DNA of 64,000 nucleotides from contig OY979728.1 in the NCBI GenBank assembly GCA_963855995.1, positions 3,892,330 to 3,956,329 of the forward strand. The letters run 5' to 3'. A model generated the notes under the pieces. That model worked only from the letters and a program-made list of their open reading frames with translations, was not told the DNA's origin and made no database searches. The stretch comes from Muricea muricata (Eukaryota; Cnidaria; Anthozoa; Malacalcyonacea; Plexauridae). Made by a program: the position numbers and the translations under genes. This document shows positions 23,315 through 62,871 of the stretch, in pieces; position 1 is the first letter of the stretch; every line of letters begins with the position of its first letter.

Positions 23315-26300
23315 ATGAAGAAAATGCTGTGCTCGATTTTTGTGTTTTTTGTTGTACATGTCGAGGGACTTTACGCCATCAAGACTTCCAATCAAACGTC
23401 AACTGAAGGTATAAAGTAGTTAAGTTTTGTATAGACCGTTGGCTAAGTCTGTATCGTTTCGTGGCATCTATGAGGGAAATTTTTTGTTTATTCTACATTT
23501 TGGTACAATGCTATCAAATATTTTTTTAAGCAAAATCACGCTAAATACTAAAACGACAAGTGATCTTCTATTAAATGGAATCACGGCAAAAAATTGAGAT
23601 GTTGTATTCAATGGTAACAAAAGTCAGTCCATTGCATGATAAGCAAAGTCACAAAAAATAAAAACAAAACTATCCGATAGTTTGATTTTGATTCTTCATT
23701 AAATAGTTTTTGCGTTAATGTGAAGACTGGAAACCATTGCCATTGTAGTACATAATTATATGCAGGTGGTAGTTTTCATACTAATATTATATTCATCTAA
23801 ATATGTGAATACTAAAATGAATGCTAAAAGCTATTTTAAAATATTTATTTTTTTACAATTTTTGGGATAGCCAGCAGTACCCTACGACAGACATTAACAA
23901 CAGGCAATAACCTTTTAAACAAACCGTTTCATTTGTTAAATTAATCAAAAATCTAAATTCGCGTTAGTTGTACTTAAACAACGTAAATACGTAATGTCTT
24001 AAAATAGACATGCTCGCCATCTATAAAGCGTTTCACAATCAAAAACGTAATGTCTTAAAATAGACATGCTCGCCATCTATAAAGCGTTTCACAATCATGG
24101 AAATCGTTTGTCTTGTCTTGGTCTCAATTAAACGCAGTATAAAAAAACGAACAAGGCCTTTCTAGTTTTCTATGTAAATTATCTCGTTCTTCAGATATGC
24201 ATTGTTTTAAAAAAATGCAAACAGCTTGTGATGTTATCTCCTCGAGCATACCAAATAAAAAGATAGATATATGCTACAAAACTGCAACAGCATCTTGAAA
24301 GTGTATTTCCAAAAGCACAGCGTATTTTTAAAAACAGTGTAATGGTTTCGCTTGAATATTTGTGTGTGTGTGAAAGATTTAATATGATTCTGTATCGCTC
24401 TTTAAATGTGCTTAAGTCATGCCAATGTTGTGCTTTGTGTCCTGTGTGTTGCCTGTATTGATGGTTGCTTTGTATACAATGTCCTTACTCATGCACTTGC
24501 ACCTACAGTTACAGTTCTCTGTACTAATAATTTCTTGTGGTTGGCTTTTTCTATAATTACGCGTGTGTTGTGGCTTGTGATAATTGACTTAACGTTACTC
24601 ATAATCAGTGACAACAGTTTTTTGGACATGCAGTAGTTACACTTAGTGTTGAATATGAAATGTATAAAACTGTTGGGCATAATAATCCATCTCCCTCTCT
24701 CCCCCACCCTAAACAATGTTGCTGGTTTTGTTGCCGGTTTAGTAACACACATTTCTCCTCAACATTGAAAGGGGGGGGGGGGGGTGCGGGGGGTGAACGC
24801 ATTTGATTTGTACATTGTTTTCATGTTTTGTCCAGAGTGCTTTGTCACTGATTTTAGGTAATGATCTACATCACATTTTCTTTCAAAGGTTACAAAAAAG
24901 CTCTTCCAGTTTGTCCTGCTGCTGCCCCTGCCAGTCATCGACCGCTGATTAGAACCAAAGATGCTTTCGGCAACGACTTTGACGCGTGTATGATCCACCG
25001 ATGGACTGCTGCCACCGGCAACGGTGTTCTTAGAACTTCACCAACCGCTTCCTGCAGCTCAAAAGATCATGTGAGACTGTGTTATGGTGCTGACATACCA
25101 GCTCGCCGTCCGGATAACGCTCAGTACATCTCCTGTTATAACACAGCTAGACTGATTCCCGAATTTAATGCTTATGTTGTTCCTTACAGCCCAACACCTA
25201 TAGCGCCGGGGTACAAAAGACCACCTTTCGAGGAAGACAAAGGACCTTGTGGTAGGTATCATCAGTATCAAAACATAAAGTCGATCCAGGAAGCCGAGTG
25301 AAAATGCAATCGCTGCATTATGCAATCGCTGCATTATACAATGTCTGTGATCATTCCGATAGAAAATTATGGTATATCATTCTTGCAATGGTTGGAAATT
25401 AACTAGATACTTTTGGTATGGTGAGATCATAACAATTTTTCTTTTAAATTAACGAAACGTTCTAGTACAAAAATTGTGAGTGCTCGGCAAGTGTTTAGTA
25501 CTCAAAATTTTTTACTTAGTTAAAAGTAAAACCATTGCCTGCGAACTTTACTCAAGTGATTTTAGAAAAGTAAAAACCTAGGCAAACCAGGAAACACTGT
25601 TGCAAAAACATTATGTTCCCCAGTTTACCCACCTTGGAAAACTATGTAGTGGAAACAAAATTTTGCTTCCCAGGAAGGAAAAATGCCAAACAAACGGCAG
25701 AAACAGTTTTGTTGCGGAAACAATGTTTGCTAGCTTGCCCACATATTATTCTGTTATGAAACATGTATTTATTTCTGTTTTAGCATTCATTGTGTCACTC
25801 AAATTCATGTCAATGTTAAATGTTTGTACAGCTAATGGAACAGGCGTCCGAATGTCTTATTGTTAGATTAATTAATGTACATTTCACAATTATCTCCTAC
25901 GTCATTCAACCTAAATATATCCACCTGTATTAGTGCCTAGTGATCAGTCTTGGATAGGAATTGTATGGAACTCCTACTTTTTCCTACCAACTCATTGTAT
26001 TGTTAATTATTTGAAATACAAATTGTATTCACTCATTTGAGCATTCACTGATTCGAAGATCTCGCTTGGTTTCGAGGCCCTCGCGCAAAAGCTGAGTTGA
26101 TCCCCAGAAGGCCTCGTAACAATTCCAGCAGAACTACCATGATTTCCCGATTTAGCATGCGCAAAACTACAAGACTCCAACAAACAAAGCAATGCAAATT
26201 ATATGTTCCCTAACCAAAGCCAAAAAATTGTTCCCTAGTTTGCCCACACTGCAGGGAAACATGGAGACACATTTGCATGAGACAGTGCGTCCGCAACAAT

Positions 26301-59958: not shown

Positions 59959-62871
59959 ATGTCACAATCGATTCTCTTGGCAATTCTGATACATCTCGGA
60001 GGATTTCATGCCTGCAACATTACGGATCAAGCGACGTCAGTTGAAGGTACAAAGTAACTTTGATTTGTCCCACATGTAGTATTATGATAATTATCACCCG
60101 AAATATTAGGAGACCACTGTTAATATTAATAACTCCTCATAGGGTTTAGCGTGTTAGTAGTATACCTGGCACGTATTACCCGGCGCCGGTTCCTCATCGT
60201 TTAATGCATTTTACCTTTCCAAACTCCCTAGTCCTCAAGCGGTTATAGCGGGTTGTGCCTCCTGTCACTGTGAAATCACGTCAGGCGTACAGTATGTATT
60301 TCATGTGAGTTAAGTTGTCGTAGTTGATTTCTCCTGTGCTTTAAGGGGTTTCTCTGGGTACTCCGGTTTTCGTCCCTCTCTAAAATAAACGCATATCCAA
60401 TAACGAGGACAACTAGGTTTGATGTATCCCTAATACTATAGATTTTCAACAGCGAACGAATAGCGTATAATATCAATAATACTACATATTGTCTTTCCAA
60501 GGTTACAAAAGGGCGGTTGTGATCGCAGATAAAGATGCCTTCAGCAACGACTTTGATGCGTGTATGATCCACCGATGGACTGCTGCCACTGGCAACGGTG
60601 TTCTCAGAACTTCACCAACCGCTTCCTGCAACTCAGATAATCATGCAAGATTGTGTTACGGCATTGCGGCCCGTCGTCCAGATAACGCTCAGTACATCTC
60701 CTGTTACAACACAGCTAAACTGATTCCCGAATTCACTGCTTATGTTGTTCCTTACGGTGCAGTACCACTAACGGGGTACAGTAGGCCAAGAAATTTCGTG
60801 ACAGACACTGGACCAAATGGTAGGTGTCATTATCGGCACAACTAGATCCGAAAATGTTTCGTGTTGAATTCGGTCAATCGAAAATAATCTGAAAGCTCAA
60901 ACTGTGATTCCAAACGTTGGTTCAACGTTTGACCAAAGTAATTTTGCACTTCTGGGAACTGTCTATACCCAAAACGGGATTACAGGAATTTGAATTTTAC
61001 CACATTCAACGTCACAATGTCATATTACGACCAATCCTACATTTAGAACTTTTTATAACAATTCTGCATAAATTTTTCCAGCTCCAAACGCACAGGCGGC
61101 ACATGCTGATTGTAGTAAACCTCCAGGTGCAACAGCCAATTACTTCTGTTCAAGAGGTCACCTGACTCCCAGTGGAGCTTTCAACACAGCAGCTGAACGC
61201 GACCTCACATTTATTATGACCAACGTTGCTCCACAATGGCAAGAGTTTAATGCCCAGAACTGGGCTGCGGTCGAGAATGCTGTCAAGGCTTACGTTCAAG
61301 CTGTTGGACGTGGAGTATATGTTTTTACAGGAACAGGTACGTCTACAACCAAGCTGGTTTTTACGTCTCTGTATCGTCCATTTTGTTGCCGATATTGTAA
61401 ACTTATCCCATACTTGTGCCTTTATCTGGGCGATAACACGGTGACATAAAAACGATATGTCCCGTGATATCGTTTTTTGTCCCGTGATATCGTTTTTTGT
61501 CCCGCGATATCGTTTTTTGTCCCGCTCAAAACAAAGATCGCGTCCGACTGAAGGATCGATTGAGAGATAACAATAAAAATATAAAATAATACAAGGAAAA
61601 TAACACAAAGAAATTTGCAGCTATTAAAATATAAGTTATTTTTGGTGTGTTTTTGTAATTTCTACCTGTTTAGCGTATTTTAAACAATAATTTTGAATTC
61701 ATTTTGAAATGTACTCGAAGTATAAATAATTTGAGAATATAATTTGGTTTTTGCTCTAGATAAAGGCACAAGTATGTGATAAATAGGTTATCACATTCGA
61801 GACTCGGTATAATATCAGTTTTATCGCTCTCGTTACGATATCATATTTTGTCCCTCGTTCGCTGCGCTCACTCATGACAAAATACGATATTGTCCCTCGA
61901 GCGATAAAACTGATATCACCTCGCCTCTCATATGATAACCTATACTTAGGTAATACGGTTAAATTACATCACTAGCAAGTAATATTTAATCGGCAGAAAA
62001 CTGCGAGACTTTGTAATGCGCTAATTAGGGGAAGGGGGATTCGGGCTAATTATGGGAGCAAACAAAATCGGAGATAAAATACGATTCACTGCTTCAAACA
62101 TCGACGAAACTAGGTTGAATTATTCCTTAGCCATCTATCATTAAGTAAAAGTACAGGAATTGGATGAACTTCGGGGATTCGGCGGTAAACAGCAAATAAG
62201 TAAAAATCGTGTTGTTTTTTTTTGGTGGGAAGTTAGAGTGAAATGCAATTCGTTATATTTTTCTACACAACAATGTTAATCCTTATGAAATCTTTAACAA
62301 TTGTATTAATTTCCGCCAGCGATATTAGTGATTTTATGCACGCATATTTAGCTGCTAACCTGGCATTGTAAATGGTCATTTTCTTGTAAACTGGTTCCTC
62401 TGCTATATAATAAAACACCCTTCGAAACCCAATAAGCACTTCACAAAGGCTTTCGCTTTTCGGATATTAACGTCATTTACTTCCACTTCTTTAGCTGGAA
62501 AAACTAAATACTGGCAATGGGGATGGAGGTGGGATTTTCAAACCTCCGCAGGAGGGCCCGTTGCCCCAAAATATTTCTGGAAAGCAGTGTGTGATCCTGA
62601 TCCCGCAGTGCGCCAATCCATCTTTTTTACTGCCGAAAACAATGTCAACGATCAATCGCAGACTGTAGTGACGAGTGATTCCTGTTTTGGTAAGGCAATG
62701 AGACACGATAGGGGTGTGATTGAGTGTGAAAGTGTTGCACAGGCAGCCAGTATTGGGCGATACATCTGGAACTGGTGGCATGGTTTGCTGGTCCCTGACT
62801 TTGACCCGGTCCACTGTGATACTGCTAACAAAGGAGATTTTCTCAAACCGTACCTCAATTTTAATTTGTAA
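59959..62871 (+). CDS. Nuclease gene 5: secreted DNA/RNA non-specific endonuclease
   Basis: Exons 59959-60046, 60502-60819, 61082-61336, 62495-62871; 345 residues, phase-1 GT-AG introns. Signal peptide MSQSILLAILIHLGGFHA, followed by a NIT sequon. Catalytic exon: SRGH (His162), Asn183, Pro186-Gln187, Asn192, Trp196, Glu200, with the Cys pair 146/158. Exon 4 keeps WQWGWRWDF and [11 protein letters not shown] and ends YLNFNL. The first exon resembles that of gene 4 more than genes 1-3, suggesting an older pair. The gene lies between direct repeats (58300-58960 and 63110-64000). It is the most compact copy: intron 1 is 455 bp and intron 2 is 262 bp. Confidence 0.88.
61461..61524. repeat. Three 20-bp tandem copies in intron 3 of gene 5
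   Basis: cccgtgatatcgttttttgt repeated three times, with one T-to-C change in the last copy. Confidence 0.9.
61787..61940. mobile_element. Foldback in intron 3 of gene 5
   Basis: tatcagttttatcgctc and gagcgataaaactgata are inverted around gttcgctgcgctcac. Outer ends ggttatcac and gataacc. Related core to 17437-17600. Confidence 0.65.

Follow-up and report, generated by a model that had tools for sequence, protein, structure and literature searches.

The window analysed here, a stretch of 64,000 nucleotides from the genome of the octocoral Muricea muricata (C13:3892330-3956329), contains a row of five complete four-exon genes, g1 to g5, between positions 23315 and 62871, the fourth of which (g4) is inverted. 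With a probability of about 0.8 we read them as an octocoral tandem array encoding active secreted nucleases of family PF01223, that is enzymes of the beta-beta-alpha-metal type. Their products would most likely be Mg2+-dependent secreted endonucleases that cut DNA and possibly RNA. Each gene consists of a leader exon, a cysteine-bearing N-terminal part, a catalytic exon with the signature SRGH...N...Q...N...W...E and a C-terminal part.

Family membership and gene structure

An earlier sequence-only reading of this DNA had recognized non-specific nucleases in the five genes and pointed to a PF01223 search as the check. In fact, the profile matches all five spliced proteins with E-values of 9e-32 to 2e-28, which excludes a chance match, and the scores (100.1, 104.9, 110.9, 103.1 and 106.1 bits) all exceed 23 bits, the curated cut-off. 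Assignment to this family is firm. The same reading had seen the active site of Serratia nuclease in every copy. This holds for the spacing of six residues, as H, N, Q, N, W and E stand at offsets 0, 21, 25, 30, 34 and 38 in all five proteins, identical to the Serratia chain, but not for the completeness of the site: the aspartate of the DRGH motif (Asp86) is replaced by serine throughout, so that all five proteins read SRGH and none carries a strict DRGH.

In a survey of 39 family proteins with 40 motif sites, from which P0035-P0054, mostly fragments, were left out, the residues preceding Gly-His are SR (18), AR (15), AK (3), NR (2), DR (1) and KT (1), and the downstream N, Q, N, W and E are in place at 38 of the 40 sites. 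AKGH occurs only in P0011, P0012 and P0015 and in none of the window genes. One sea anemone protein (P0007, Actinostola) carries two PF01223 catalytic motifs, SRGH and NRGH, in a single chain. The predicted fold agrees with the assignment, since an AlphaFold2 model of the relative P0001 matches NucA, EndoG, EXOG and Serratia nuclease and points to a beta-beta-alpha-metal structure.

All five genes could be rebuilt as intact models; one of them is inverted, as had been proposed, namely g4 on the minus strand, and the common architecture stands as well: all 15 introns are in phase 1, splitting a codon after its first base, and exon 3 measures 255 nt in every gene. Splice sites are GT-AG in 13 introns and GC-AG in the remaining two (the third intron in both g1 and g4). 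Indirect support for the four-exon models comes from two ENA proteins, P0001 (contig of 1,296 bases) and P0006 (contig of at most 1,710 bases), which span all three exon junctions unbroken; from the size of these contigs we infer that they are transcripts.

The signal peptide with an adjoining glycosylation sequon that had been described for each copy was found as a sequon in all five proteins and, for the signal peptide itself, as a hydrophobic leader identified by hydropathy. The highest 11-residue Kyte-Doolittle mean within the first 25 residues is 2.4-3.0, compared with 1.2-1.7 over the remainder of each protein. The sequon follows just after the leader and reads NQT in g1 (residue 26), g2 and g3 (residue 23 in both) and NIT in g4 and g5 (residue 20 in both). 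We infer from these features that the window proteins are exported and N-glycosylated.

By tblastn, the peptides of exons 2, 3 and 4 are each found five times, all other matches having E-values of at least 1. With the g5 protein as query, 16 of 17 matches in the 453-Mb genome (74 contigs) fall at this locus and the remaining one, on C1, is weak (34% over 62 residues, E 0.03). The PF01223 profile yields 19 matches, five of them at this locus. A second group comprises complete genes on C1, C6 and C11 and others that are partial or less clear; its members have TRGH, DRGH or DKGH and one open frame, whereas the window genes have SRGH and four exons, and they share with the latter a hydrophobic N-terminus as judged by eye. 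Leader-like N-termini are present in the second-group entries L001, L002, L003, L017 and L021, and three PF01223 matches lie close together on C11 near 4.24-4.25 Mb.

Relatives, exon mosaics and spare leaders

A protein search with g5 gave 25 matches, 13 of them with a source name, all of which we take to be anthozoan, two of the genera having been looked up. The best named relatives are three proteins of the octocoral Dendronephthya gigantea (54-59% identity over 98-99% of g5); Paramuricea clavata gives a partial match (47%), and the sources matching at 30-40% are presumably hexacorals. A widened search based on a 28-row alignment returned 38 matches at E-values up to 1e-5, and the 11 named ones are again all anthozoan. 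By protein similarity, too, the host would most likely be an octocoral. No crustacean appears among the named matches of either search, both of which require a candidate to have short exact words in common with the query.

In a tree of 27 rows, made up of the five window genes and 22 of 54 fetched relatives, the window genes fall together with three unnamed ENA proteins (99/95), with Dendronephthya as the next step out (100/100). Gene g1 sits with P0001 and P0006 (100/98) and not with g2-g5, which group with P0003 at weaker support (90/90). Because g1 clusters with P0001 and P0006, to which it is at best 77% identical, its lineage and hence part of the array probably predates the split from the species behind these two proteins. 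The three Dendronephthya proteins (LOC114515638, LOC114516219 and LOC114516229) are uncharacterized members of PF01223 and resemble the window genes in that their motif reads SRGH or NRGH and no active-site residue is missing. They differ in forming a separate branch (93/87, under the firm-support mark of the tree) and in that only one of the three has an NQT or NIT sequon after the leader, as opposed to all five window genes. Two of them seemingly lie on one contig, which suggests clustered copies in this species, too.

Whole-coding-sequence comparisons of the five genes give a synonymous divergence (dS) of 0.22-0.65 and a ratio of nonsynonymous to synonymous divergence (dN/dS) of 0.35-0.65. 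The ratio stays below 1 in all ten pairs, so the copies are under constraint on average. The five-gene row is a clear local expansion; the notion of an arsenal that is still expanding is not borne out, given these dS values and the grouping of g1 with P0001 and P0006.

The closest pair changes from exon to exon: by dS it is g2-g5 in exon 2 (0.10), g2-g3 in exon 3 (0.09) and g1-g3 in exon 4 (0.23). The lead of g1-g3 in exon 4 is narrow, g2-g5 being at 0.26 and closest by dN (0.098), and the g1-g3 signal is confined to one tract. The longest identical runs of g1-g3 (exon 4) and g2-g5 (exon 2) each reach p 0.0005, the lowest value that 2,000 permutations can give, and g1-g2 and g2-g3 follow with p 0.0045 each (ten pairs tested). 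Exon-wise gene conversion or unequal crossing-over would be the simplest account of these mosaics, and the copies may accordingly be pictured as swapping exon tracts by gene conversion.

There are eight exon-1-like sites for five gene bodies and thus three spare copies. The spare intact leader upstream of g3 codes for 31 residues identical to those of the g1 leader and differs from it at 1 of 94 sites, compared with 86 of 863 sites in the flanking DNA (p 0.0009 by Fisher's test, run after the pattern had been noticed); recent conversion could also have caused this likeness. The broken leader of g2 differs from the proximal leader of g3 at 6 of 85 sites, with no depletion relative to the flanks. 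Since the upstream stretches of g2 and g3 match pairwise (36613-36841 with 43109-43325 at 76%; 36964-37983 with 44944-45983 at 85%), the arrangement with two leaders probably predates the separation of g2 and g3. A more far-reaching and rather doubtful proposal is that of a modular array, in which the ancestor of g2 and g3 had two stacked leader exons with promoters of their own, g3 still uses both and the gene bodies were reshuffled by exon-wise conversion. One g3 nuclease body would then be made from two promoters and with two leaders. The cluster is a small system in which to test how a secreted enzyme family stays alike and yet varies through gene conversion and leader-exon duplication.

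Proposed function and alternatives

In Serratia nuclease the active-site histidine is the general base acting on a water near Asn-bound Mg2+. In the octocoral proteins the leader would direct export of an N-glycosylated protein. If its active site works likewise, the histidine would act on water near Mg2+ held via the asparagine, and nucleic acid would be cut internally. An altered metal need is expected because Asp86 is serine, by analogy with the Asp86Ala exchange in Serratia nuclease, which according to passages of one paper raises the Mg2+ requirement and leads its authors to connect the AKGH of northern shrimp and related crustacean enzymes with a higher magnesium need (PMC2858651). The exchange to serine would thus raise the Mg2+ requirement, and the octocoral enzymes should retain activity while differing in the metal they need or its amount. 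They form a source of marine nucleases for which this property is predicted; our understanding of the well-known PF01223 family is left unchanged by the cluster.

Several points weigh against the reading as active secreted nucleases. Absence of the DRGH aspartate makes activity and metal need uncertain, two of the 40 motif sites (in the relatives P0009 and P0025) are off the spacing, and the modelled structure is that of P0001 (61% identical to g5 and 77% to g1) and of no window protein. Moreover, tsetse Tsal, a PF01223 protein without the catalytic histidine, binds DNA and retains residual cutting only, as stated in passages of PMC3479092, though the window genes keep this histidine. The digestive role considered below is argued purely by analogy.

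The window proteins differ from Serratia marcescens nuclease and Anabaena NucA by the serine at Asp86, an extra cysteine-bearing N-terminal part and the division into four exons. EndoG and EXOG share fold and active site (profile E-values of 6.8e-12 and 3.3e-6) but are annotated as mitochondrial, whereas the window proteins have a hydrophobic leader. The duplex-specific nucleases of Kamchatka crab and northern shrimp are, in the passages available, animal PF01223 proteins as well, with signal peptides, where the window proteins have a hydrophobic leader, and with Asp86 likewise replaced (PMC2413221; PMC2858651); they have AKGH in place of SRGH, and the northern shrimp enzyme has 404 residues compared with 326-357 in the window. 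No account of secreted PF01223 nucleases from octocorals was found in the available parts of the literature searched, which leaves out most subscription journals.

Sequence alone does not separate digestion, defence and venom-like secretion, all of which had been put forward for the cluster. In the leading reading digestion or scavenging comes first, defence next and venom last. A digestive or scavenging role, somewhat short of an even chance, is suggested by the leader and by the crustacean relatives from hepatopancreas described in parts of PMC2413221 and PMC2858651; the enzymes would degrade DNA, whether free or from prey, in the mucus or the gut cavity.

Defence, in which the same enzymes would clear DNA of pathogens, of biofilms or released by the coral itself at the surface, appears possible but distinctly less probable. 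It fits leader and sequon in all five proteins, dN/dS values of 0.37-1.55 for the leader exon (ten pairs) that exceed those of the whole coding sequence, and the example of Lundep, a salivary endonuclease of sand flies that destroys neutrophil DNA traps according to PMC3916414. However, whole-coding-sequence dN/dS is under 1 in every pair, and the five open reading frames of the window outside the array that were compared with Pfam gave retroelement-type domains in four cases and none in the fifth.

It is unlikely that any of the copies, with g4 as the first candidate, is degenerating or has become an inactive DNA-binding protein. A 9-residue loop and two cysteines close to SRGH are missing from g4, and no other copy has so long an end branch, but its frame is open, its splice sites are intact, all six active-site residues are present, dN/dS is 0.35-0.44 in its four pairs and the loop is absent from the relative P0006, too. 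Delivery of the same enzymes in venom or cnidae is the least probable alternative. In its favour, PF01223 is among the domains common to a toxin database and ctenophore colloblast genes (PMC6278862), and a review of cnidarian toxins counts 13 nucleases and nucleotidases in the toxin-associated gene set of the jellyfish R. esculentum and also mentions a DNase II family of Hydra (PMC12767216). Against it, the former paper reports no significant overlap of the ctenophore candidates with toxin domains, and the passages of the review name neither the PF01223 family nor an octocoral nuclease.

Coordinates and surrounding repeats

Table 1. Genes, exons and spare leader exons of the nuclease array (positions in the window)
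Feature	Position	Strand	Length (amino acids)	Remarks
g1	23315-28991	+	357	
g1 exon 1	23315..23408	+		leader and NQT sequon; donor gtataaag
g1 exon 2	24889..25251	+		
g1 exon 3	27109..27363	+		catalytic, 255 nt; followed by GC donor
g1 exon 4	28630..28991	+		includes stop; tract in common with g3
Leader fragment upstream of g2	35858..35908	+		
g2	36748-40843	+	343	
g2 exon 1	36748..36832	+		distal leader, NQT
Second g2 leader copy (proximal)	37412..37496	+		donor lost (GGAATA)
g2 exon 2	38012..38335	+		near g5 (dS 0.10)
g2 exon 3	39766..40020	+		catalytic, 255 nt; near g3 (dS 0.09)
g2 exon 4	40476..40843	+		includes stop
Spare intact leader upstream of g3 (distal)	43223..43316	+		donor gtataaag
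g3	45375-48261	+	340	
g3 exon 1	45375..45459	+		proximal leader, NQT
g3 exon 2	46267..46581	+		
g3 exon 3	47175..47429	+		catalytic, 255 nt
g3 exon 4	47894..48261	+		includes stop
g4	54663-51236	-	326	
g4 exon 1	54582..54663	-		leader and NIT sequon
g4 exon 2	53168..53476	-		
g4 exon 3	52114..52368	-		catalytic, 255 nt; followed by GC donor
g4 exon 4	51236..51570	-		includes stop; without 9-residue loop, as in P0006
g5	59959-62871	+	345	
g5 exon 1	59959..60046	+		leader and NIT sequon
g5 exon 2	60502..60819	+		
g5 exon 3	61082..61336	+		catalytic, 255 nt
g5 exon 4	62495..62871	+		includes stop

Several repeats lie in and around the array. Between g1 and g2 lies a BEL/Pao long terminal repeat (LTR) retrotransposon (29240-35532) with three LTR stretches that are 99-100% alike and with DUF1759, aspartyl protease (below cut-off), reverse transcriptase, A17 and integrase-type domains; it is probably a young insertion. 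A palindrome of about 1.2 kb (48463-49644), built from minisatellite units with periods of 9, 18, about 64 and longer, separates g3 from the inverted g4, its outer arms of 188 nt being 97% complementary, and an inverted repeat whose arms of 278 nt are 94% complementary is situated between g4 and g5 (56647-57560). One and the same five-base microsatellite occupies intron 2 of g2 (38915-39705, 158 copies) and of g3 (46845-47114, 54 copies), just before exon 3. Upstream of the array, separate frames on the minus strand (18930-21798) resemble a broken non-LTR retrotransposon, and a reverse transcriptase domain was found in one of the two frames tested.
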